Shown in pieces: positions 1 through 49,866 of a stretch of DNA of 64,000 nt. Under the pieces are notes generated by a model, which had not been told where the DNA came from, searched no databases, and saw nothing but the letters and a program-made list of their open reading frames with translations. The stretch comes from Sclerodactyla briareus. Its lineage: Eukaryota > Echinodermata > Holothuroidea > Dendrochirotida > Sclerodactylidae. The translations under genes and the position numbers were made by a program. The stretch is taken from positions 1-64,000 of the forward strand of contig JAODTK010004976.1 in the NCBI GenBank assembly GCA_026419785.1, read 5' to 3'. Position 1 is the first letter of the stretch; each line of letters begins with the position of its first letter.

Positions 1-1135
1 CGCGACAGGCAATACTGGTTAGACCGTTTATGGATTCGCGCTTGTAGGTAGGAATACTTTTATAGGGATTAGATTAATAGCGTCCTGAGGGCTAGTTTCC
101 TTTTGATGGACAAAATAATTCTTTATCCACATTTATAACCCTATATGCACTATGTGATAATAGTATGTGATATTAACGAAAACGTGCTGCCGTAACGGGA
201 ACACAATGGCCAAAGTACCTTAATAGGTCAGATAACAGAAAAACCCATACGTTTCACCCAACACCGGCGAAATCTAGAAAGATGTGCACAATCATACTCG
301 GGCAAAACCAAGATAGAGGTTCGGTTTTTGGGTTTGCCTGTCGACCGTGTAGTCCACTCTCATAGATTTCTCAATTCGCCGTTATAATGTAGGAGGCGAT
401 GACATGGGAGGGCTCGCAACGGATAACATCTATGAGAACTTGTTCTGATAACCGACAACACCATTTAAAACTGCGTCTGTTCCCAATATTTGTAGTGCAT
501 ATCTCTTTTAATACGAGCTAGAGAGCATTGAGAATACAAGTTGTTATAATCACCATGTTAAGAAGACTTCTAAACGTTATTAAACATAGGTCAGGGAGAA
601 ATATATCAGAGTAAATATATGCGCAAAAATGATATATTAAAACAAAGGGCAGAAAAAAAAGGGGTTAAAAATATGTCAACTCGGTGTGGATGCAGGCACG
701 TAGAACATTGGGCAATTAGGGATATGCATAGTAAATCACTTATATCGTAGCTTTTTCCAAGTGAACTCATGAATAATTATCATTGTTATTGCTGTTATTT
801 TGTGGTGGGGGCGGCATTGCGCAGTAACGCAAGTGATATTTCAAAACACAAGCACTCATAATTTAAAATAGCTTTGTTGCCACACTAATAGGGCCGAATG
901 ATGTATTATATCTTTATAAAAATTTCAGTGTCCCTCTTGTACATCGGAATCAATTTCAGGTCACGTTGAAATTAGCACCGTACTCGCGACAGACAATGAG
1001 GTTAGACACTAATATGGATTCGAGACTTGTAGTAGAAAATTCTTTTATAGTGGGGCTTAGATTAATAACTGTCATGATAGGATGGTTCCTTTGGAATGGG
1101 ACAATATGATTATCCCCCATTTTCTAACCAATAGA

Positions 1136-1907
1136 TGTGGTAGCGGCCCAGCCAAATTACAAAATTGGCAAGACAATACTTTCTGTGAGTTTGTCATATT
1201 GCCTGGCTAAGCGTTTACGATCCTGTCGCTGTGAGGCTCACCGTCTTTGACAGCTTCATCTCGTCTGTTCTCAACAGGTAAGTTATGACACTTACTAGGG
1301 TTCGTATACATTATCTATAAATTTTACATATTTACATCAATTTATGTGCATGTAAAATTCCTTATGGCATGATATTTCGGCGTTTACAGGTACAGTGATC
1401 GATCACATATTCCAGCCTAGGCCTACGGTGCTATTGATTACAGTGCCATCGTAGCACTACATAGCGGCATGTAAGTTGGTGCCGTAAAATAACCGCGCTT
1501 CGCCCGGTTGCAGGGCAGGGTCCATGTCTGTTCATCGTGGCGTAGCATCATTGCATTTCACGCTAGGTTGGCTGTGTTATCACAAAGTGCTACGTTATAT
1601 CGCTTCATAGCAGCAGCCTTCCCCTGCCGGTTATTTCGCCATGGCTTAGGACCATCGATAGTTTGCTCAGTCTGAATGCGACTAGTGCAGCATTCATTAT
1701 GCGTACTTCACTTATGTGGTTCCTTGCTTTGCTACACACTCGGTATGCATATTACTATTACTTTCACACACACGCTGTTCCTAGTTTTTGGTTTCTGTTC
1801 ATATCTTTTGAGGGACAATGGTGGGCGTGGAGAAATGAGAGATTTCGCTGGATTTGACGCTGTGTGGAAATCTTTGGCTTATGGTAAGAGATGGGGTATT
1901 GGCAACA
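1136..1907. mobile_element. Insert in repeat copy 2; possible solo LTR
   Basis: The flanking tandem-repeat sequence is continuous across this block when compared with the first and third copies, so about 770 bp was inserted here. The insert can be bounded as TGTGGTAGCGGCC at the left and GGTATTGGCAACA at the right, the TG...CA form expected of a long terminal repeat. A TATAAAT lies near 1315. I see no clear target-site duplication and no coding domain; the two overlapping frames of 64 and 108 codons have no recognisable motifs. A solo LTR is the best guess; an unknown SINE or MITE is possible. Confidence 0.35.
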
Positions 1908-3590
1908 TCTCAAACTCTTCATATGCACTATGTGATAATTGTATGGATATTAGGAACACCGTGATTGCGTCCGTAATGGAAACACAGTTGGCAATTACCT
2001 AAAATGTGAATAGGTCAGATACAGAAATAAACGGAAGTTTTACCAACACCTGGAATTTGTAGTTCACGCAATCATTACTTGGGCGAGCATATAGAGGTTC
2101 GGTTATTTGGGTTTTGGTTTTTGCCTTGTTCGCCGTGTAGTGTAGTCACTCTCAGGATTCTCAATCGCCGTTATAATGCCGATGCACCACATGGAGGGAT
2201 TGCACCGAATAACATCTGTGGGAAACGTTCTAATCACCGACAAACACCGTTTAAATATCGTGTCTGTAGCGTAAAAGAGCGTATATCTCTTTCAATAGAG
2301 AGCTAGTAGAAACAATGAGAAGGGAAGTTGTTATAATCACCATGTAAAGGAAACTTCATAATCTTTATTATCTATAGGTGAGGGAGCAGAAATATCAGGG
2401 GAAAAATATATGTTCCAATGATGTTTATTGAGCTAGACAGCAATAGGTTATAAACAATATTGCAATCGGTGGATGCAGCTGTAACGTTGGTGACTAGTCA
2501 ATTAGGGATATCCGTATATGAATTTCAAAACTCTCGTAGTTTTTTTCGAACCAACTTTCAAGGAATAATGAAATATTATTATCATTGTCATCTCGAGGTG
2601 GGGGCGGCATTGAGCAGTAGAGGAAAGTATACTTCAAAAACAACACTCATATTTACAAATAGGCTGTCTATTCCTAAATATGCCGAATGATTTTGTATAT
2701 CTTTAAAATCTCATGTCCCTCTTATGCACTCGGGATCAATTGCAGGGCAATGGTTAGACCGTTTTATGGATTCGAGACTTGTAGGAAGGAATCTTTCATA
2801 GTGAGCTTAGATTGATCACTGTCCTGAAGGGCTGGGTTCCTTGAATGGGACAAATGATGCTCGTCACACATTTTCTAATGCAATACATGCACTATGTGAT
2901 AATTGTATGTGATATTAGCAAAAATGTGCTGCATAACTGAAACAGAGTTGACAATTACCTAAAATGTGAATGAGTCAGATACAGAAATAACCGAACGTTT
3001 TACAACACCTGGAGTAAATCATGCAATCATTACTCGCGCCAACAACATGTTTTTTGTCTTATCGCCGTCTAGTCACTGTCATGGCTTACTCAATAACCCT
3101 TGTACCAGAGGAATATTATTTTCTGGGAACTTGCTATAATAACCGAACAACACCATTTAAATGTCGCGTCTGTTCTCCAATATTTTCTGAGCGTGTATCT
3201 CTTTTAATACGGAGCTACAGAGCAATTAATGAGAAGGGAAGTTGTTATAATCACCATGTTAAGGAGACTTCATAATCGTCATTATCAAGGTCAGGGAGAC
3301 TTATTAGAGTAGATATATTTGCAATGAGGATATATTACAATAGCAAGCAATAGGGTATGAAAATATTGCAATCGGTGGATGCAGCTGTAACATTGGTGAC
3401 TGGTCGATTAGGGATATGCGTATTCCATTACAATATATCATAGCTTTTTCGAATTAAACTTCAAGGATTCTTTATTATTGTCATCTCGGGGTGGGGGCGG
3501 CAGGTACTCTCGCGACAGCTATAATAGTTCGACCCTATGGAATTCGAGACTTGTAGGGAGGAACCATTGCGCATATGGGCTTCGATTATT

Positions 3591-13471: not shown

Positions 13472-15046
13472 ACAGTAGCTTGAAAAGCTAACATGTGCAC
13501 TGTATCAAATAGTATAGCCTATACAAATATATCACTTCTATATTTCACAAAAGAATGTTATTAATTAATTAATGTCAGAGGCAACTGAAGAGAGAACCTG
13601 CATAACATGTCCACAAATTCAGGTTCCATTCCAACTGGACCTTCATACATATGCAACAAAAATGTACAATATATAGGCAACAAAAATCCATCAACTAATT
13701 CTCAGTAACGCTCTTGCAAAGAATCTCTCAAAATGATTTCATGCATAAATTGCATTATAATCAACATACAACATCTGTTGGCCTACATTGCAGATAGGCC
13801 TTCTACCTCGTTTGCTATCTTAATACTACCATCACACAAAAGATTGTGCCAATGAGATACAGTGCGTACCAGTGTGCGTAACCAACAGGACACGCATTGT
13901 CATGAAATGCTAATTACGCCATGTCCACCGCACTATTCAAAACTTATTCACGCACTGCCACGGCATGTAGCCTACCGGTAGCCATTTTGTTCTTGTCGAC
14001 CACCGCGCTCGATCATCATTGCGCAGGCGTAGTTTAAAACTTTGCCAAGAAACATGTGCGGGAGGGAACTATGGCAGGCGATGCGGGGAGGATTTCCCGA
14101 CTGTCGAAAACTATTCGTAAAGTAGTCGTAACTAGGCGTGAAGTGCGTACCGGCCACTGGGGTCGAGTGGCCATGCAGTGGTACCAGCGCAACAAAACTG
14201 TTTGCGAATAGTTCGCGCACAGTTAATAGAATGTTCACGACAAATTCTCGAAATTTCCGTAGTGCAAAATTTTGAAATTGAAAATTTCACCGCATGGCCG
14301 GATTTCCCGCAAGGCTGCCCATGAACACTTCCCCATTGGCACGAAATGGTGCGAACGAATGCGCAAACTATTCGGAGACTCCAATGCGGGCAAGTGTGAA
14401 GGGGGCTTTATACGAAACTGTTCACTAACCTCATACCATATGCGTGACTCTTTAAAGCTGCATGGTCCATAGGTAGCTAGCCACTAGTCCACCTCAATCA
14501 GGTCCATGAGCGACCAGCATCACCCGTTGAGAGCAAATATTTCAAATTATATACCTGTACAACCTCATGAACACCATATCACCATGGTCATATAGTGCAA
14601 AAGTCTTAAAACAACAGGGGCAGGACTGGGTGTTTCTATCTCGGTTTATGCTGGGGCTGTCATAAACTCAGTCTGTGGGGAGAGTTTACCACCACAATGA
14701 TGTATATGCTGTGATTTTAGCATTTACAAAAATGAACTAAATCACCAATTGTGCTGTAGCTCAAAACTGCCCACAAATGCCATTATTTCATTGGCGGACT
14801 TTTTGCGACTAAACTGACACCTAAAATGACAACCGACTTCAAATTCTTGAGCACGCACCGACCCATAAATTACCACTGGTCACTGATAACAATTACCACA
14901 TGTTATTATCATCCAAGTTATTATGCAGGAAAGGCATTTGACTCCCCAAAACTCTTTTTGGGTGAGAATATATCCCCTAACTGATTGCCGACCCCAGCTC
15001 CCGAGATGATTGCGGACCCCTAATCCCAGAACACGCCATAAGCACC
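12491..15046. other. Non-coding stretch; poly-A run and possible MITE end
   Basis: No gene is seen. There is a pure A run at about 13438-13469 and a short palindromic patch TGTACAGTGTACA near 13295. The block ending GGGCAAGTGTGAAGGGGGCTTTA (about 14390-14412) reads like the terminal inverted repeat of a cut-and-paste MITE, but I could not find a convincing partner end. Confidence 0.45.
13438..13469 (+). repeat. Poly-A run
   Basis: Roughly 32 consecutive A. No retroposon body is recognisable upstream, so its origin is unclear. Confidence 0.8.
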
Positions 15047-16512
15047 ATGTGTTAGAGCAATGAAACAATGGATTACATAACATAACTATCTGTGCTATTC
15101 AACTGTGACGTCATATCCTGATTGTGCAATTGGGATTCGCCTAATTTTCTGATCATGAACCAAAGATAGAAAGTTGATGAATCCACATACAAATGTGATG
15201 GGGTTTTAAACCTATAGATGTAGTTTTCCATTCCTGTGGTATATTCTCTATTGTATCCAGGCCTGTAGTTATCCTCTACGACCTTTGACCTTAACAAACG
15301 GGACCACTAGTACATGATAATGCTGAGAGAGTTCCATTGTAATCCAACCTAATCCGTAGAAGAAACATTTTGCCAATATTTATACCTAATAGTCCATTGA
15401 ATAATATACCCCCACTAAGTAGGTGTCACTATTCGAGATAACATTGGTCAGTATGATGGTAATCCACCTTAGAGGAAAGCATTCGCAGTTTCCATATAAG
15501 GGCCCCATCTGCCCCTTCATATACACCACATAAGTAGCTGTCTAATCTGGGGGGGAGGGGGAGCACAGGGGGCGAGACTGTTCAGGACTGGTGTGGGCAC
15601 TCAAAGACTTAGCAGAGCATCACCATACAGCTGTAGCGGGTTCGTGTAGGGGGTTAATATTTCACAAAAATTTATGAATGCTGACTCATACCAAACCTGT
15701 TTGAGGGATGAAAAATTGATATGTTTAATTTCTACCGTATTGAACGACGTCTCGCGAGGACCTCGCGATGTCGATGGGCCGGACGAGTAGAAATACAGTC
15801 GCCGATCATTTTGGAGCAAATTAGACGGCTAATTTTGAAAATAGGTGTTGCATTGATCATCATTCTAATGCCTTATTGAAAGCAACAATATTAAGATGCC
15901 TTGCCTTCACTTCCGTTGTTATCTTATGATCGGCCTAGTTTGTGCCGTGAAGACACTGAAATATGGAATTCTGACCACATTCAGGCCAACATCCATGTTA
16001 TATTTTCAAAGTTATCTCCAGTATCAATCTTGAAGAAAACAATGGAAGTAAATAGTTTAACACCTGATACAGTTAATGCATCATAGTACTCTTGTCGTTT
16101 TATTGTCAACCAAAAATGTACTGTTTGTGCTATGAATTGCCGAAAGGATGGTCATTAGACACCAATCTAGCCATTCTCAAGGAGTCATTCTATGAAACTA
16201 GGTGGTCTTCTTCGGACTCTATCTTGGAGAATGGACTAAAAGCAACAAGTTGGACAGATCATTAGAGAAATATGCCTCATATTTGATGTTTCGAGCTCGA
16301 CTAAAAGTGGTAGTTGGTAGTTTTGTGCTACGAGTGTTCAAGGATTACACTCGCTTAAGGGTAAGTAAACTTCCCACAAAGGTTTGTTCCAGTAGTGGAT
16401 ATGCTAGGAATATTAGTTGTCAGACCACTTGCCAAAACAAGTGTTGTATATATATTATATATAGATAGATATATTAATATATATAATATATTATATTATA
16501 GTATATATAATA

Positions 16513-16550
<38 letters not shown>

Positions 16551-16872
16551 AATATATATATAGTATATATATATATAAGAGATATATATATATATATATA
16601 TATAGGGACCGCTGGCAAGTCATAACCCCAACACCCAAGGCCCAGTATTTCATGATGCTTGGATTGCAAAGTCCAGGAGGTTCCAGGTCTAAAATATTGC
16701 TGCCACGTGCATAATGATCGGTGACACATGAGGATATGGCTATCCATGCATGGTCCCCTCGCCTGGCCTCGACGCAAGCATTGGGCATATAGACCCGTCC
16801 CCCCACCTCCATGCCAACCTGCCCAACATTCAAGGCCATCCTGGCATCCCGCCCTATAAAACCGCCAGAAGC
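15047..16872 (+). repeat. Tandem duplication of ~1.8 kb, unit 1
   Basis: From AGCACCATGTGTTAG this unit matches the one starting at 16873 along its whole length, including ACATACAAATGTGATGGG, GAATAATATACCCCCACTAA, GGCATATAGACCCGTCCCCC and CCATCCTGGCATCC. Differences are mostly one-base indels. A TGACGTCA (cAMP-response-element core) is kept at 15106-15113. A minus-strand frame of 72 codons at 15601-15819 has a partial counterpart in unit 2 (shared YGDALL), but indels break the match, so I do not call a gene. Confidence 0.85.
16447..16604. repeat. AT-rich microsatellite
   Basis: A run of TA and TATA variants about 155 bp long lies inside duplication unit 1. The corresponding place in unit 2 (about 18270-18295) has only about 30 bp of it, so the tract changed length after duplication. 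Confidence 0.9.
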
Positions 16873-18600
16873 ACCAGTGTGTTAGCGCAATGAAACATGG
16901 ATTACTAATAACTATCTGTGCATCAATTGTGACGTCATACCTGATTGTGCAATGGGTGATTCTCCTAAGTTATCTGTATCATGACCAAGATAGAAAGTTG
17001 ATGGGAATCCACATACAAATGTGATGGGTTTTAAACCTATAGATGAGTTTTCCATCCCTGGGGTATATCTCTATTGTATCAAGGCCTGTAGTTATCCTAG
17101 ACCGGAACTTTGCATTAAACAAACCGGGACACTAGTACTGATATGCTGAGAGGAGTTCCATTGTAATCCACCTATCTCCGTAGAAGAAAATTTTGCCAAT
17201 TGTTATACCTAATAGTCCATTGAATAATATACCCCCACTAAGTAGGTGTCACTATCGATGATAAACATTGGTCAAGTATGATGGTAATCAACTTAGGAGG
17301 AGCATTCGACCAGTTGTCCATATAATGGCCCATCATGCCCTTATATACACCAAACATAAGTAGTAGCCTGTCTAATATGGGGGAGGGGGAGCACAAGGGG
17401 GCGGGACTGTCAGGACTGGGTGGGTGCACTCAAGACGTAGCAGAGCATCACCATACATGCTGTAGGCTGGGTCGTGAGGGTGGTTCATATGCACAAAATT
17501 CTGAAAAATGTCATGCTCATACCAAACCATTTTTGATGGGCATGAACATGATCCTGTTGAATCTACCAGTATTGAACGACGTCTCGAGGTACCTCGCGAT
17601 TTGTCGATCGGGCCAGGACTATAGAAATACATGTCGCCGATCATTTTGGAGCAAATATTTAGAAGGCTATATTTTGAAAATAGGGTGTTGTTGCATGATC
17701 ATCATTTTCCTAACGCCTTAAAAGCAACAATATTAAGAGCTTGCCTTCACTTCCGGTGTTATCTGATGATCGGCCTAGTTTGGCCGTGATGAGACACTGA
17801 AATCTGAATCTGACTCTACTTCAGCCACATCACATGGTTATATTTTCAACGTATCTCACAGTACTCAATCTTGAGAAACAATGGGAAAGTAACTAGTTTA
17901 ACACATTTTAGCAGTTAATGCCTCATATTACTCATTGTCGTTTTATGGTCAACAAAAATGACTGTTTGTGCTATGAAAATATGCCGAAAGGATGGTCATT
18001 AGACCACCATATAGCATTTTCAAGAAGTCATTCTATTAACGAGGTGTCTTTCGGACTCTATCTTGGAGAAGGGAATAAAAAGCAAACTAGTTTGAATATT
18101 AAGTAGAGATATGCCTCATATTGATGTTTCGACAGCTCGACGAAAAGTGGTAGTTGTGTACGGAGTGTTCAAGGTACACTCGCTTAAGGGGGTAAGTAAA
18201 CTTCCACAAGGTTTGTTCCAGAGTGGATATGCATGAATATTAGTTGTCAGCCACTTGCAAAAAGTGTTGTAGATATATATATATAATATATAATGCTCGT
18301 TATTACTATCTGAATTTCACTAAAGAGAGGAAGGGAACCGCTGGCAATAACCCACCACCCCAGTCCCAGGTCATTTCATTGACTGCTTGGAGTGCAAGTT
18401 CCCGGTATGTCAGGTAAAATTTTTGCCTGCCCACGTGCATATGATCGGTGAACTTGAGGGGTATGACGATCATGCATGGTCCCTCGGCCTGGCCCTACAG
18501 CAAGCATCCTGGGCATATAGACCCGTCCCCCACCTCCAAGGCCAACGTGCACGAACCATTCAAGGCCATCCTGGCATCCAGCCCTATAAACCCAGCTGGG
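16873..18600 (+). repeat. Tandem duplication of ~1.8 kb, unit 2
   Basis: Second copy of the 15047-16872 unit, ending near CCCTATAAACCCAGC. The TGACGTCA element is kept at 16930-16937. The minus-strand frame at 17372-17644 corresponds to the unit 1 frame at 15601-15819, yet the proteins agree only in short patches, which argues against selection on the protein. It could be a true local duplication or two haplotypes joined end to end in the assembly. Confidence 0.85.
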
Positions 18601-29900: not shown

Positions 29901-30146
29901 AACCGGCCGGACGCGCACTTCGGTTATCAGTGAATAAATCTGTTTTTTGCCGAGTCCTCAAGGAAAATAATAGGGAGTCAGGCCTTCACTCACGTCGCTC
30001 CTGATCTGTGATCAAATGCCGTCGAACTCCGGCATCACTTGGGTTTTTTTGTGTTTTGCTCATACCGCGAGGTCTTTGTTAAAAGTCGTATTCATTTCAG
30101 CTTGTTTATGGTTGATTATGTTGGTTATGATTGATCATTGGTAAGT
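26951..30146. other. No recognisable gene
   Basis: About 3.2 kb of mixed-composition DNA before the DIRS element. Frames of 60-90 codons occur on both strands (for example 28594-28836 plus), but none shows a domain, repeat or signal peptide that I can identify. Confidence 0.5.
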
Positions 30147-30180
30147 TAACCCCCCTGCGTTAAGGGGGCTACTTACGAGG

Positions 30181-30330
30181 GCACTTAACTTCTAGACTTA
30201 CTACAAATTGCATTTTCGCGTCGGCCAAACGGCCGCTCAACACACCCTATACCACTAAAAAAGAGTTAGCACAGCGCCGGTACCGACACGCAGCCGTAAC
30301 TAGCTGGGAGCGGTACTGGGCTGCACTATC
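30181..30330. repeat. Left inverted terminal repeat of the DIRS-like element
   Basis: Its reverse complement matches 36749-36890: both share GATAGTGCAGCC, AGTTACGGCTGCGT, TTTTTTAGTGGTATAGGGTG and GCAATTTGTAGTAAGTC. The outer extension at 30147-30180 (AACCCCCCTGCGTTAAGGGG onward) is not shared with the right terminus but is matched by the internal complementary region. Confidence 0.88.
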
Positions 30331-30394
30331 ATTCCAACTAGCACCCGGGGCCCCCGGCTTATGGGGAGGACGGGCGGGTGCTCCCAGAATGTAA

Positions 30395-30476
30395 GTTGGC
30401 CCCTCGTAGTACCTCCCCTTAACGAAGGGGGGTTCACTTACTTCAGGCCTTACCTTCTGGACTTACTACATTGCAG
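30395..30476. repeat. Internal complementary region (ICR)
   Basis: The first half, CCCCTTAACGAAGGGGGGTT with the preceding CCCTCGTA, is the reverse complement of the left outer end near 30147-30182. The second half, ACTTACTTCAGG...CTTCTGGACTTACTAC, is the reverse complement of the right outer end near 36860-36900. The two meet at GGGGGGTT/CACTTACTT. In DIRS-1 this region templates joining of the element's ends into a circle. Confidence 0.82.
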
Positions 30477-30799
30477 ACTCCCACCGCAAGGAGGTGGGAA
30501 GCGGGGATCGAATTATCCAACTGGAATAAGACACTCACCATAAAAAGATGTTCTGATTACCGCCTCCGCAGTCAAACAGACTACACAGCCGAGCGGGGCC
30601 CATCCTCACAGGCAGGATGTCCCCGAGCCATCCACAGCCCAACACAACAGCCCTACTAGCTGAGGCAGCGCGGTAGGGAAGGTGAGTGGCACAAAGCCGA
30701 AGCTTACCTAGAGGCCAGTTACCCCCAGCGCGAGGGCCACAGACGCTGACCCGAACCGTGACCCCCGCACGGGAGGGAGGCGGTGGCCATGCGGGATTC

Positions 30800-31930
30800 A
30801 CTCCGCAGGGCGTCCCCTAGGTATAAGCGTCAAGTTATCTGAGATTTCATCTCGAGCCTGTAGAATCTCCTCTAACGGCACACCTTTATAGAGCGCGGAG
30901 GGAGAGGACAACCCCCCCCCCCCCCGCACTTCGAGAGCTCGCGGTCGATACGGACCAACGCCCGGCGAATCACGCTGATACACTAGAGATCGTATCCCTG
31001 GAGTCGCGTGTATGAGGTAGTACACAGACCTCCGGAGGGACGTCCGCTTCCAGGTCAACCCGAAGGGCCCGAACTGGACACCACACCTCGTCCCCCTCCA
31101 CTCCCGAGAACTCCCAACGCACGATGAAAATCGGAGCCGGGGAAGATTGACCTACTGCCGTCTTAGTGAGAAAACACGTCCGGAACCAGGCGGCCCCCCG
31201 TGAGGCTCGAAACGCATATGGCCGCGGGCGGAATAGACGGAGGCAAACAAGGCACCACGGCGCCGAGCCGAGGCCGCCAAGAGGAACGCTGTCTCACCAA
31301 CGCTGCGGCAAGAGAGTCAGTCCGCTAGCGTTCATTGGAGGCTCCGCAGTATCCGAGACGTCCCCTGTCCCAGGGCGAACTAGAGTGCGAACCCTTGACG
31401 ACCAAGACATGCTCCGAAGGAGAAGGTCAAGTGGCTTCGCATAGACACCGTTGACCCAGTCCGACCGCCTATTATACCGAACAGCGGAGCGGTAACCCCG
31501 GATCGTGTTCACTTGCCGCCCTAAACGGAACAAGTAAGAGGAAAACTCGCCAACCTCCCCTCCAGTGGACGCGGCCCGGAGAAACCGGCGATCCTCACAC
31601 CACCCTCGGTACAATCCGAGTCGCGAATCACACAGGCAGCGGTGGAATCTCTCCGACCCGGGCCGCCATCGCGGCAGCCTTCTCCGAACGGCCCGACGCT
31701 CGGAGGGAATCTTCTGCCACCGCCACGCACCAGGCCATAAAAAGGGAAAGAAACCAGAGCCTCCGTATCGGACGGCGCGTTCCCAGACCCGGAAGCCCCA
31801 GGAGGTCGCTCGAAGCGGGGAAAATTCGCGGCGCACCCGCCAGCAACGCCAGAAGTGGCCGGAACCACCTCGGTTCGGCCAAAACGTCGCTATCATGGGG
31901 ACCCAACACGGGCTCCCTGCCAACCTTTTG
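30800..31930 (-). pseudogene. Tyrosine recombinase of the DIRS-like element
   Basis: The N-terminal SAM-like part appears in the frame 31294-31923 as FSSYLFRLGRQVNTIRGYRS, followed by a DLLLRSMSW block and a LVRPGTGDV segment, as in DIRS and Ngaro recombinases. The C-terminal catalytic part is in the frame 30798-31058, where GVPLEEILQARD matches the family's helix before the nucleophile. A neighbouring frame reads RLYLGDAL, placing the likely catalytic tyrosine, and another reads HTRDSRD where the H..R pair is expected. At least three frame breaks separate these pieces. Strand exchange is the family function; this copy cannot make the full protein. Confidence 0.75.
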
Positions 31931-32229
31931 ACTAGTCGAACGGCTGGAAGGCATACGCACGGAAAGCCACAACCAGAGCCAGATCATCGACCACCCAGGC
32001 GCACCTCGAGCGGGACTCGTGGTGCAGAAGATAGGCATCTTTGCGTTGAGAGGCGACGCGAACAGGTCCACCTCCGGACATGAACGCCTCGACAACGCTT
32101 TGCACAACTCCGACGTGATGAGACCACTCCGTCGGAGCAAGAGTGATGCGCGAGAGCGTGTCCGCGAAGGGAAGTTCTCCTGAATCCTGAAGGTGAACCG
32201 CCTGAACGCGCACCCCGTGCGTGCGGAAC

Positions 32230-32560
32230 CACAGGAACAGATCCTAGGTCACTGTCCAAAGACCCCGCGAATGCGTCCGCGCCCTGCTGGGTTATGTACG
32301 ATATCGCCGCAGTACTGTCGCAACGGACCAGTACGACGGTCCGCCACTCGCGCAATAATTTCACGGCGCGGAACAACGCAAGCAACTCGAGCACATTTAT
32401 TGTGTGTCCCCGTACCTCCCGATTCCCACACTGAGCCAACGCAACTCCAGCTAGGCGTCGAGTGAGGTAAAAAGTTGGACGGGAAGCGGGAACCGTACGC
32501 CATGACTTGGTCCCTTTCGGCCATCCACCGGAATGCTCGGGTCCGTGTGGCGGCCACACC
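32230..32560 (-). pseudogene. RNase H domain of the DIRS-like element
   Basis: Within the minus frame 31984-32772, around residue 125 of the open frame, the sequence reads INVLELLALFRAVKLL, then VVLVRCDSTAAISYITQQG. These are the second and third acidic blocks (ELLA and CDSTAA) of retroelement RNase H in the DIRS group. The first aspartate block is in another frame near 32500. The domain follows the reverse transcriptase directly and removes template RNA during reverse transcription in intact elements. Confidence 0.8.
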
Positions 32561-32789
32561 TGGCGTCGACAGATTTCCCGAGACGACGGGCGCAACACGC
32601 CAAGAGGTGTATCTGGAGGGGGCGCATGATACAGCAAGCCAAAGGTGACCAGGTCACTAGGTTCGCCCATGAAACCGAGGAGAACCAGCCACGCCCGCGC
32701 AGGGAGTTCTGCCCTGAAACAGCCGACACCCGGCTGCCTGGCCTCCAGTCTCCCCAGGTTGGTGGTGGCCACACCGTCCGCCTAATCGA

Positions 32790-33580
32790 TCTGCGCACCC
32801 AGATAACGATCTTTGGGGACGGTCTCAGGTCGGACTCGTCGTATGACGAGCCATCCCAGGCCCCGCAAGTCCAGAATCCGTTCGGTGCTCCTCTGACCTC
32901 CGCCTCTGAGTCCCCCACGATAGCCCGTCTTCCAGATACAGTGAAGATCTGGCACCCCCTGACCGAACGCAGATGGCCCCCGTGGCCCTCGTGCCCCGTG
33001 TAAACCCACGGGGCGCCGTCGACAAGGGAAAACGGGGAGACTGGTACATCGGTAGGAGGAATCGCGAAGCGGAAGCATAGGAAGAGGGATCCTCCCCCTA
33101 CGGGGAAATGCCAGTTTCAGCCGCTAGGTCCCCCGACGTCGTCCAGAGACCCCTCCTCCAGGTGTTTTAAACTCACCGCTAGTTGTTCCATGCGGAGTGG
33201 GGTGGGCGGACGAACACTGTTGAGAGGACGCAGTTCAATATGGCCCGCCACGAACCGTCCCCTCTTTTGCATCAGGAAGAAGACGCCACAAACCGTGGGA
33301 CTTCTTGCGGGAGGAGGGGAGTAATGGCCCCTTGGCCAAAAGGGTTTCGATCTCCCTCTCCAACAACGACGCCTGGGAGCGGTCCGGCGGGACCGGCGTA
33401 GCCCGAAAACGCCCGGGCTCGGGGAGGCGCCGTAAAACTCCAGACGATTCCCGGGAGGCGTGGCCAGATCCACCTGTTCGAGGTGACAGTGGGCCACTCC
33501 CCCGCAAAGTCCCGGAGCCGACCCCCCACAGGCGGGGTCCGCCTGGGGTCCGGACAATGGGCCGGTAGTCACTTACCCCC
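32790..33580 (-). pseudogene. Reverse transcriptase domain of the DIRS-like element
   Basis: The N-terminal block reads LEREIETLLAKGPLLPSSRK in frame 33235-33597, then IELRPLNSV with a PLRMEQLAVSLKHLEEG segment in frame 33117-33572. These match the DIRS pattern of REI..LL.KGA followed by DLRPLN and F.ME. The polymerase core appears in frame 32825-33049 as SLYLEDGL, where YLDDWL is usual; the first aspartate is glutamate here. The rest of the palm is split by frameshifts. Its start is not visible as a separate ATG; in intact elements it is fused with RNase H. Confidence 0.78.
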
Positions 33581-33589
33581 GGGCTGGCT

Positions 33590-35545
33590 GGAGGCATAGC
33601 CTCCTCTGCCCGGCGGAGAATGACGCCCCCCTTGGCTGCCGTGACGCTTTGTCCGTGTCCCTTCTGCTAACGGGGGGGGGGGAACCCTCCGCCCTCTGGG
33701 GGCCGAGACGCCCTGAGAAGCCTCCCCCGCGCGCGGCGACTCTGATCAGAAGACTGTCCTCTACGGCAGACACGTCCGCCGTCTTCCAGTACGTTTCCAC
33801 CCGGGAAGCGTTCTGTTCCAGGACCCGTGAAAACAACCTCCGGGAGGTCGGGCCCAACAAGGGGCGCTCAGGAGTTCGCCCGCAGCAGAGGCGAAGGAGG
33901 TTTCAAGTCCGGAGGACCCATATTCGCCCCAAAACAAAAAAAGACGTGTGCCTTGACGCAAATGCGGGCAAACTGAACGCAGGCCAGCCTAGTAACCGCC
34001 GACTGGACCCTTGCCATCACCTCCCGCAAAGAGGGGTCTGCCGACGGCTTCACCTGGGCGACCACTCCGCTAACACTGAGAGCCGAGACCTTGACTACCG
34101 ATCTCGCTGTCACGGTCAAAAACCGAGATCGCTCTCGGTCTGCCTGGGCCGATCCTTCAGACGGAAGGAAGCTTCCCCCCTCCTTGGCCGGGAGAACCGA
34201 CGTCCTCCCCGACAGGACCAGCCGGCCCCACGCTCTCGGCAGGGAGGTGAACGGAGAATGGCATCGTACTGGCCTGGGGTACTCGAATGAAGGCTGTCCT
34301 CCCGCTATGAGACGCTCGACGGAGACGTCTCGGCCCTAGCCTGGAAAGCTGGAACACTTCCAACCGGCATCTGGAGGGTATGCAGCGGGCGGAGCGTATC
34401 CACGGTGCTTGTCCCAACGCGCCCAGCCTGTCAGATCTTCCGTCGCGGCCTCCCTGGTCCTTTGACAAGTCCAGGGAAAAAGCCCGAGCCAGTACCGCCA
34501 CCGCCGCAGCGTCGTCTGCCTCAACGAGGCCCGTAAGGGTGGCTCTCCGTCAACTGAAGGGACTCCTGGCCCGACGGGCCCCCTCAATGGACGGGGCAAC
34601 AAACTCCGATCCGTCCGAGTCTCTGTCCGAAGTTCCCAGCATCGCCAGGAAGGGGGTGGGCATCCCCGAAGAGACCCAAGCGGGGGAACCCGTCGCGAGG
34701 TTTGTTTGGGCTTCAGCCAGGGGCAGCGCCCCCCAAACCCCGGCAGTGCGCCAATGACGGGGACCCTTCGGGCGACCGACGTGAGATCCACACTGGGTGG
34801 GCGCACTAAACAGGAATACGTCACGACAGCCCGTGGACGGGCAGTCCCATGAACAGTACCAGGGCCCCTGACGTACCGAACGGATTCGGGGGAACGCCAT
34901 AACAGAGGGCGGTGTGGCTCCCAGGAACCCGTCACCCCACTGGAGGAACGTTCCATGACCCTGCGCCCCGGCGCAGGGGTCTGCCACCCCCAGGCAGGGC
35001 CAAACTGGTCATGGTGGGGGGGCTGAGGCCGGAAACCCGACACGCGGGAGGCCTGCCCTAACCCGGTTAGGGACATGGACGACGGAAAGGATGACGGCAC
35101 AGCGCCAACGTAGTCGTCTCTTAAACAGCGGTCCCCGCAGGGACCTCAATCCCCCCAACCCAGGCCGAGGCAATGCACGTTCGCCTGAGGTGGAGGGAGA
35201 AGGGAGGGGGGACTGAGTCACCGAGGTGCCCGAGGGATCGCCAATGGTCCGGAAAGACCCGGTGGGTGACCGAGGTATTAAGCCCGCTGGCCCTTCAACG
35301 ATAGTGACCGTCACGACCGGGTCCGGCACCACGCAGGGCCTCATTCCCCCATTACTGGCGAACCCAACAAGGGAAGCAGAGTGGAGGAAGAAGGGAAAGA
35401 CAGGAGCAAGGTCCCGACGCGAGTAGTAGAACGGGGGGACACGGAGGGATCCCACAAGCGTGGATTGAGCGCACGCAAGCCCCGACGCGCCGGTAAAAGG
35501 GGAGGACCTCTGAGCCTTGCGGGAGGTGCGCTGGCTCGAGGACAT
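33590..35545 (-). pseudogene. Putative gag-like region of the DIRS-like element
   Basis: Several overlapping minus frames fill this part: 35009-35545 (begins MSSSQRTSRK), 34336-35100, 34157-34501, 33868-34119 and 33573-33860. Together they make a serine/proline/arginine-rich protein followed by a segment containing LREVMARVQSAVTRLACV and a more hydrophobic tail. Position 5' of the reverse transcriptase is where gag lies in DIRS elements. I recognise no zinc knuckle and cannot align it to a known family, so the call rests on position and on frames being far longer than elsewhere in the window. Confidence 0.5.
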
Positions 35546-35559
35546 TGTAACTAATGCTC

Positions 35560-36748
35560 TTCATCTTACATAACTGTAAAAAGCAAACGACACCAGAGTT
35601 AGTAAATCAGGGTAAGGTACTCAAATAAGTACTATACTAGACAATGACTCGAAATGTCAAGAGGACCCAGAGAGCGCCCGAGGGTCCACAATGACCCCCT
35701 GCGGCCAAAGTTGCAACTTGACCAACTAGGGTACGTTACGCAGATATAGGGCAAAACGTGAAAAATGCACGAAACGGTAAAGGCCCACCCCCAACTTACC
35801 GAGGGGGGGTGGGAGGAAACGCAGACGGTCAGAGGGCCCCTCAGGGGACCCAAAGACACCCAAACCCTGGGTCTACGGCCCCCCAGGGCACCAGGGAGGG
35901 GAAAAGCTCACGACGGGAAAATAAAGATGGCCGCAAGCTAACTGAGGTGACGTCACCGCTCGGAGATGACTCATCTGAAAGAAGAAACAAAAATGTACGG
36001 TTCATGACATGAAAAGAAATTTTTGCCCCTCTCCCAGGCTATAGCCCGCAAAAGCGGGCAACATATGCGTGACATATGAATAAAATAGGACTATAGACCA
36101 CACCAATATGGCACCCACGCACCGTAGCGAATGCTAAAAAGGACGTGAGGGTGCCCGTCTTGAATGCAAATTAGGCAACGGCCTGAGAGCCAAGCGCTCT
36201 GGACGCACTGGGGCCTAGCCACACCGACAACGGGGGGGGAAAACACCAACAAAGGCAACGAAGGGAAAACCCCATAGCCACAGGGTGTAAAAAGTCTAGT
36301 GCAAAGCAAGCGAAAGGCGAAGGAGGGGGAAGACCCGCTACGAACTAGTGAGGGAAAACATCCCCTCCCGGAGCCCAAGGGGGCGGACAGAGCCCAGAAG
36401 GGCTCAAACGAACCGAAACAAGCTAGCGGGGAGGAAAAACGCACCTAGCCGGGCGGGGAGGAGGGAGAAAACCCCAGCCCCCCACGAAGAACGGTCGGCC
36501 CAAAACGAAGCCCAGACAAAGAACAGGGCACACACAAGAACCGCACTGGCACGCTATCGAAAGGTCCCCCGATCCCAAGGAAGGGGCAGGGAATGAGTGA
36601 ATAATACAGGAAAACTACACCACAACCCCAAAAAGAATTAATCACCTGATAGTGGTTGAAATTGTGGTAGGAAGTAGCGTGAGAAGCGTAAACTCAACGA
36701 GAATAACGTTAGCCGGGTGTTGCTGTTGCAAACACACACCGAAAAGAA
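35560..36748 (-). other. Non-coding leader of the DIRS-like element
   Basis: About 1.2 kb between the right terminal repeat and the gag-like region. Its frames are low-complexity arginine/proline or serine/leucine runs caused by purine-rich DNA on the plus strand. I see no promoter motif. Confidence 0.5.
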
Positions 36749-36902
36749 GATAGTGCAGCCCCGTACGGCTCCCAACTAGTTACGGCTGCGTTCGGTACGG
36801 CGCTGGCGTATCTTTTTTAGTGGTATAGGGTGTGTTGAAGACGGCGTTGGACAAAAATGCAATTTGTAGTAAGTCCAGAAGGTAAGTGCCTGAAGTAAGT
36901 AG
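36749..36902. repeat. Right inverted terminal repeat of the DIRS-like element
   Basis: This is the start of the element in its coding direction. It pairs with 30181-30330 with short indels. The outermost GGTAAGTGCCTGAAGTAAGT is missing from the left repeat but matched in reverse by the internal complementary region. Confidence 0.87.
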
Positions 36903-37782
36903 GTCGAGTCACCAGTGACAAAAACGGACAATATAAAATTGGACGGGTAGTATAGTATATGCGGCAAATGTGCTTTTATGCGTGGATTAAACTAATGAAA
37001 CATGCCGAATCGTTTAAAGGCAACTGCAGCCTTGGGTACAACAGAGTTTTTCGTGGAATAGAAATCTGCTCTATAGGGGCGAACCCTATTCATATACGAT
37101 TTCGTATCATGGAGTTCGAAGTTGGTCTATTATAAAGACATGGGGATACATCCCAATTGCGGAAATAAACGCATTACGTCACACTTGGACAACCCGTACC
37201 TATTAGTACCAGGATGAAACAACGCCAAGGTTCCACGAGGTGCCAACTAGCGCATAAATCATACCTTCATTCAGGAATCGTTTCAATGCTCATTGCCTGC
37301 AGCGCCACTCAACAAGGAACCAAGTTTTGTATGGGACAGATTTCGACTGTACAGACCGTGGTTCACAATAACTCGGAAAGTTGTTAGTAGAGTTTAGGTA
37401 CGATACGGACACTGCAGCACGTATCGCTTCAGTCGTGGACACCATTCGTTCTTGGCGGACCTTGTGATCTGCCGGCGGTTCCATAAGTAGTGAACTTGCC
37501 TTGATGCCGCAAACTTGGGTAAAGAAAAAAACATATTCTGTATTCTATCTAGTGCTATCAGTGTATGAATGTCGCTGCTTTACTGCACTGAGTACTTGAC
37601 TTTAGTCGAGTAATTATGTAGTAATGGTAGGGTGTATGTGCGTGGGTATGGACTATGTGTAAGAGGGCCATTTGTATTGTGTCATAGAGATCCCTAAAAA
37701 AATCCGTTGGGTGACATTCTTATTTGATAAAAAAGAGGTTGACCGTGCATAGGACCAAACACATGATCGATCAATAATAAGT
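36903..37782. other. No recognisable gene
   Basis: Flank of the DIRS element. No target-site duplication is evident, as expected for this class, and there is no motif-bearing frame. Confidence 0.5.
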
Positions 37783-48529: not shown

Positions 48530-49866
48530 GCTTGTGTTTTTCTACACCAAGGACCTACTGGTAACATATAATTTTACTCCCAAGATTTCATGGAAGATTA
48601 TCTCATTCCAAGAGCAGAGCTCAAGGCAACCAATAATTCTATATGACCTTTTTCATTATTGCTTTGGAAAATCTAGTGATGAATTTCCAATGCAATTTGC
48701 CTACAGGTCCAAGCGCAGTACAGAGGATGCCATATTATACAGTCTCGAAAGATTGTATTCACATATTGAGCACACAAATCTGGGCCGCACTGCAAGGGTC
48801 ATGTTCTTTGATTTTATGTTACCTTACGTTCATCGTCACAGAACATCCAATGTTATCACATCCAACACAGGTGCACCACAGGGTACGGTTCTCGCACCAT
48901 TTCTTTTCCCGTTATATACATCCGATGCAAAGTCAACCAATGAAAACTGCTCTTTAGTCAAATTTGCAGATGACACCTCATTGATTGGTTTGATAACGAA
49001 GATGATGCTACTGGTATAGTACCAAAAACATAACTTTTTTACCTATTGGTGAAGATAACTGCCTAGAACTCAATACCACAAGACAAGAGAAATGGTCATA
49101 TACTTTCGAAAATCTGGAGGGGTATCACGTATGGTTACTATCAAGGTAATACTATGAAAAAGGGTGGATAGTTATAGATATCGTGGGGTTGTGATTGATA
49201 ATCGTCTGGCTTGGCATGATCATGTTGACATGCTAATGAAGACACTGAATTCCAGATGCATTGCCTGCGTACGATCAACAAGTTTGACATCAACAACAGC
49301 ATTCTTGCCATTTTCTATAACTCATCATCGTATGGTTTGGCAGTACAAGCTTATTTCATGGGGCGGCAATGTTAGGAAGGAAGATGCTCATCGAATGATG
49401 CTTGGGCAACAGGCAAGTCGCATCATTAGGGAGAGTCAGTCATCCTCGGCCTCGTCCTACCATACCTTCTAGGGGTTAAGCTTGAAAAAATCCTACATGA
49501 GGAGGACCACCCACTCCACGAGTCCTCTGTACAAAGCGATCATCCCTAGGAGTGGTAGAATGAGCTGCCCTGGGCTAGGACTAACTACAAACTCTCCTCC
49601 TTTATCCCACAGTGCATAATGCGTCATAACCTGTATTTCAGGCGTTAGTCATGCATGCTACGTCGTTAGTTTTTTGTCGCCATCTTCTCACAGTGCAATG
49701 TGTTGTTCCCATATCTCTGTTCGTTTTTATTGTCGTTGTACACATGTTTTTATACTTATGTAATTATATCTATTTCTTACCCCTTTAAATGTTTTCTATA
49801 TTTTTTTTTTTTATACGAGCACGCATTACCCTTGGGTTAAAAAAAGTGAATCTGATTATCTTATCT
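48530..49866 (+). mobile_element. LINE reverse transcriptase, internally deleted and truncated
   Basis: The frame 48534-49019 contains QFAYRSKRSTEDAILY, then ARVMFFDF, then NTGAPQGTVLAPFLFPLYTS and CSLVKFADDTSLIGLI. These are fingers and palm motifs of a Rex1/L2/CR1-type reverse transcriptase with the FADD catalytic pair intact. Between MFFDF and NTGAPQG only about 16 residues remain where the family has several tens, so the middle of the palm is deleted. A second frame (49164-49472) has YRYRGVVIDNRLAW and WQYKLISWGGN, the thumb and C-terminal part, and RSGRMSCPG-like coding follows near 49550. The 3' end is a short ATTATCTTATC-type tail. Frameshifts make it a dead copy. Confidence 0.88.

Follow-up and report, generated by a model that had tools for sequence, protein, structure and literature searches.

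The 64-kb stretch of Sclerodactyla briareus DNA analysed here (the window) harbours an element of DIRS type, the parts of which are collected in Table 1. With a G+C content of 60%, the element stands out against the window away from it, where 2-kb blocks range from 38 to 46%. Outside the element, a scan of 97 of the 103 open reading frames in the window has yielded a single noteworthy match, to a LINE-type reverse transcriptase, at 48531-49016 (Pfam RVT_1, E 8.8e-7), which with 29.3 bits falls just under the cut-off of 29.6. Rfam and tRNA scans of the 64-kb window gave no match. The beginning of the window (16-3502) is occupied by diverged direct repeats, each several hundred bases long and about 69-71% alike, with units at 16-1137, 1921-2889 and 2751-3502.

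Table 1. Features of the element, listed from its 5' to its 3' end; positions are those of the window.
Feature	Position	Strand	Basis and remarks
DIRS1-like element (very probable)	30147..36900	-	6754 bp; left (5') terminus 36900, right (3') terminus 30147-30149; repeats and borders common to copies
Left (5') terminus, an inverted terminal repeat that departs from the right repeat in its outermost part (divergent ITR)	36749..36900	-	
Site where about 490 bp of 12 other copies are missing	34596..34597	.	Comparison with 20 fetched copies
Putative reverse transcriptase pieces, frames broken	32690..33370	-	tblastn with window and L033 pieces; YLED near 32938, YLDD in a copy
Putative RNase H piece (..NVLELLALFRAVKLL..VRCDSTAAISYITQQG..)	32240..32400	-	Motif and copy comparison; Pfam RNase_H E 0.16 (ORF 31984-32781), no better than chance
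Putative EVDLFASPLNAK pol piece	31950..32100	-	Motif; DLFAS described as a DIRS1-specific pol motif (PMC2685390)
Putative tyrosine recombinase pieces (..VNTIRGYRSAV.. / ..DEVWCPVRALR..)	30970..31560	-	Motif and copy comparison
Internal complementary region	30401..30475	+	30401-30441 complementary to right extension and right terminus; 30436-30475 to left start
Right (3') inverted terminal repeat, outer limit approximate	30171..30330	-	30180-30330 vs 36749-36890 at 84.9%
Right extension (rE), limits approximate	30147..30170	-	Matches internal complementary region, not left terminus; C-run/G-run hairpin possible

Comparison of 30101-36950 with the 64-kb window (E up to 0.001, with ungapped blocks as a separate comparison) has, besides the match to itself, identified three inverted matches in all. 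The first aligns the two terminal repeats over 152 columns (E 5e-37; coordinates and identity in Table 1) and bears out the inverted repeats that had been read from the letters in the original prediction; both repeats can be aligned in 13 of 21 copies. The second joins the left start, 36858-36900, to 30436-30475 (93% of 43, E 8e-10) and the third the right end, 30141-30181, to 30401-30441 (88% of 42, E 5e-6), so that an internal region complementary to both ends, as had equally been proposed, is present. Each repeat had also been assigned an unmatched outer extension. This holds for the right terminus, which carries an extension at approximately 30147-30170, but not for the left terminus, where a separate extension is lacking and the outer bases align, if imperfectly, to the right terminus. 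At least one terminal extension, the right one, is thus part of the window element.

The circle junction that had been predicted from these matches was addressed by joining the final 35 bases of a copy to its first 36 and comparing the product with the inside of the same copy in the 15 copies with two borders. In the window copy, 66 identical bases over 70 of the 71 positions gave a score of 106, while 20 shuffles of the junction reached at most 30. The internal region spans the joined ends in 11 of the 15 copies (the window copy and 10 of the 14 others); in two copies (L027, L030) only the right half of the junction is matched, and in another two (L034, L040) the junction test found no internal region. 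In the 13 copies having a match, the region begins at a distance of 287-341 nt from the 3' end. The commonest junction reading, GGGGGTTAACTTAC, represented in the internal region by GTAAGTTAACCCCC, occurs exactly in 4 of 21 copies and within two errors in 13 of 21, the window copy included, and the reversed control of a slightly longer junction string matched none of the 21 copies. In the internal region of the window copy, a G replaces the second T of this reading, which gives the C after GGGGGGTT in the original prediction.

A search with the 5' end of the element against the assembly holding the window (319 Mb, 3171 contigs) has located this end in at least 40 genomic places, that of the window included, with all 40 that were scored, of 270 candidates, being significant. 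Borders were read from a sample of 25 sequences consisting of 20 fetched stretches, the window and four shorter loci. On the left side, 18 of the 25 align from the first base of ACTTACTTC, equivalent to the first base of ACTTACTTCAGGG, and hence begin with ACTTAC; six of the remaining seven begin at most three bases away and one, L027, is without the first 16 bases. The base adjoining the left border is A or T in 16 of 18 cases, and nothing common was seen farther outside in these 18 aligned left borders. On the right side, an end can be aligned in 15 of the 25 sequences and consists in all 15 of a G-run followed by T, with A or T as the next base and differing flanks thereafter. Among the ten sequences lacking a right end, four are short 5' loci too short to hold one, and in six fetched stretches (L025, L028, L031, L035, L038, L039) none was found. 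Shared borders with differing flanks indicate that the borders of the element do not fall elsewhere, in agreement with the expectation that other copies would have the same ends.

The coding content was approached by comparing the stop-to-stop pieces of the window and 20 copies among themselves (tblastn with window and L033 pieces). Toward the 3' end, motif pieces of reverse transcriptase, RNase H, DLFAS and tyrosine recombinase follow each other, which is the order in DIRS elements; that pol and recombinase pieces have this arrangement is less firmly shown than the structure of the ends and is suggested by motifs and copy comparison. The VNTIRGYRSAV and WCPVRALR pieces recur among the copies, and the pieces with VNTIRGYRSAV and DEVWCPVRALR are likened by us to DIRS tyrosine recombinases, while the EVDLFASPLNAK piece presumably represents the start of the methyltransferase part. 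Among 21 copies, DLFA[ST] was counted in 7, GYRSA in 7, [RC]CDST[AT] in 5 and Y[LIVM]DD in 1. In PMC2685390, DLFAS is described as specific to DIRS1-like pol and YLDD, common with LTR elements, and ADALSR as marks of reverse transcriptase and RNase H, respectively; ADMLSR in L032 resembles the latter. Pfam searches with overlapping sets of 10, 8, 4 and 70 pieces, the 70 being a selection from 109 pieces with a length of 105 aa or more, gave no match to reverse transcriptase, recombinase or methyltransferase models, and the RNase_H match (Table 1) is far below the cut-off, with unrelated families scoring equally or better (PCIF1_WW at 0.15 in the same search and Phage_Gp19 at 0.0047 among the 70 pieces). 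Two PDB searches with pieces retrieved unrelated chains only, with E 0.65 or worse, and of seven pattern matches in viral_contigs none was confirmed as a relative. This lack of support from protein libraries is put down to the broken frames.

The element had been considered structurally complete, which is correct for its ends but not for its inside, where the pol pieces are distributed over several broken frames and approximately 490 bp are missing upstream of the reverse transcriptase. Of 20 fetched copies, 12 span the site 34596/34597, and all 12 possess extra sequence there, 427-551 bp in 11 copies and 755 bp in L029 (median about 490); the other eight are broken or interrupted at this position. 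In L021 and L030, the extra stretch is matched by that of every other spanning copy, showing that one homologous stretch is concerned, and most simply this stretch would have been lost from the window copy by an internal deletion. An intron in its place was discarded, the stretch being by eye without GT..AG limits. Nine of the 15 copies with two borders are 6.7-7.6 kb long, although lengths in this assembly are noisy, compared with 3974-6283 bp for the 28 elements listed in Table 3 of PMC3266345. Shortened copies with both ends are found at 1.2 kb (L026), 3.1 kb (L023), 4.1-4.2 kb (L024 and L036) and 4.7 kb (L032). Four of these (L023, L024, L026 and L036, 1.2-4.2 kb) have preserved both ends together with the internal complementary region and are possible non-autonomous derivatives.

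Whether the broken frames and the 15% divergence of the inverted repeats reflect true decay, with copies mutating ever since an old burst, can be weighed by the type of changes involved. The copies are about equally far apart, as would be the case after an old burst, with a median of 12.1% substitutions (8.0-16.7%) and a transition/transversion ratio of 0.49 (0.31-0.80) in the 199 of 210 pairs that have at least 1000 aligned bases, and some copies have large internal deletions. On the other hand, the window copy differs from 20 copies by 12.2% substitutions with a transition/transversion ratio of 0.49 over 99,664 aligned positions and by 7.2 gap openings per 100 bp, of which about 73% concern a single base (matches below 150 columns left out). 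A ratio of 0.49 is the value for random change, and random substitutions combined with plentiful one-base gaps typify uncorrected long reads and not animal mutation. Repeats in the flanks, unrelated to the element, behave alike: 80 pooled alignments gave a transition/transversion ratio of 0.57 and 7.6 gaps per 100, in a set from which rows below 120 columns or above 98.5% identity were dropped, in which many rows are overlapping self-matches of tandem arrays and in which parts of the element that the window copy lacks may evade the mask. Within the window, the alignment of 15034-16471 to 16863-18292 covers 1361 positions and contains 18 transitions, 82 transversions and 104 gaps (0.22; 7.6 per 100). 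This duplication of about 1.4 kb resembles read error, or one region assembled twice. A few clean repeats are found among the rows considered individually, the 60 longest of the 80, such as L008 2621-3175 (transition/transversion ratio 1.45, 0.5 gaps per 100) and L024 6198-6588 (1.00 and 1.8 gaps per 100); the host's own mutations thus need not give such an error pattern, and the L008 pair demonstrates that the noise is not uniform across the assembly. True decay is consequently unlikely, with a small chance of being right, and the broken frames are probably for the most part long-read errors of the assembly, as judged from the spectrum of changes, with the internal deletion of about 490 bp in addition. 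With this signature in substitutions and gaps, neither age nor inactivity of the element can be stated, and the divergence of the inverted repeats has been dropped as a clock.

The inverted repeats, the right extension, the internal region complementary to the joined ends and the common borders with differing flanks are all observed, and together with the motif pieces they support the DIRS-like identity that had been proposed. The window element is very probably a copy of a multi-copy DIRS1-like tyrosine-recombinase retrotransposon. DIRS1-like elements are described in PMC3266345 as having inverted repeats that diverge in their outer part, together with a right extension and two internal complementary regions that overlap; a left extension is reported there only from fungi and amoebozoa. 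Similarities to this superfamily, in PMC3266345 including DIRS1 of Dictyostelium and the animal elements SkoDIRS2 and GaDIRS1, extend to terminal repeats with divergent outer parts, a right extension of about 25 nt, a complementary region near the 3' end that spans the circle junction, and putative pol pieces with DLFAS, with the putative recombinase pieces coming last. PAT and Ngaro elements are tyrosine recombinase retrotransposons, too, and a direct match of 42 nt at 74% between 30164-30205 and 30429-30470 might recall the split direct repeats ascribed to them (PMC3266345 for PAT; PMC9210276 for Ngaro). Nevertheless, this direct match arises as a consequence of the internal complementary region. 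The long match between the termini is inverted, and the counterparts of both ends lie within the element close to its 3' end, as PMC3266345 describes for DIRS1-like elements. Split direct repeats of the PAT or Ngaro kind were not seen in the comparison of 30101-36950 with the window, and an element of either type is very unlikely. The DIRS1-like family encountered here appears to be new, but of known kind and with an ordinary mechanism.

According to the DIRS model published in PMC3266345, from which the following steps are derived, the internal region would act as the template that completes both cDNA ends and unites them (..GGGGGGT-TA-ACTTACTTC..), whereupon the joined molecule would be closed to a circle and made double-stranded. 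The recombinase would subsequently swap the short T-T/A-A junction, centred on TA, with a comparable short site in the genome, leaving no target-site duplication behind, and the circle junction would be expected to read GGGGGGTTAACTTACTTC. Circles of DIRS-1 have been reported (PMC5633606). The A/T-rich positions at the borders (16 of 18 on the left, 15 of 15 on the right) would suit exchange at a presumed core of 2-4 bp, DIRS1-like elements being expected to insert at a short junction of 3 bp, although no empty target site was found. That insertion instead targets GTAAGT, the consensus of splice donors (which reads ACTTAC on the sense strand of the element), is improbable in the extreme: ACTTAC is present at both borders of the window copy, the right flank of which continues with AACTTAC like the junction, but in the other copies it forms the constant left beginning of the element and follows no right end among the 14 others that can be aligned (nearest is ACTCAC in L027). 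The splice-donor target was rejected on account of these right borders.

The most unusual sequence trait of the family is the hairpin in the right extension. Its commonest reading, C6TTAACGAAG6, is present exactly in 2 of 21 copies and within two errors in 12 of 21, with no match for the reversed control. It may distinguish the family from known DIRS1-like families. The hairpin and the two joined ends give rise to a near-palindrome of about 60 nt at the circle junction and in the internal region, and folding of this sequence gave z values between -1.8 and -3.5 for five copies and of -1.9 for that of the window. Most of the palindrome is, however, expected from the joining of two inverted repeats. 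There is a slim chance that the hairpin or near-palindrome, beyond plain complementarity, folds into a structure that signals template switching or serves the docking of the recombinase.

Repeat divergence and broken frames in this assembly bear the mark of long-read error and are unfit for dating elements or calling them dead, which serves as a warning. While the layout itself has already been described in PMC3266345, the analysis adds a many-copy DIRS1-like family, with ends that are readable across copies and that fit the published circle model.
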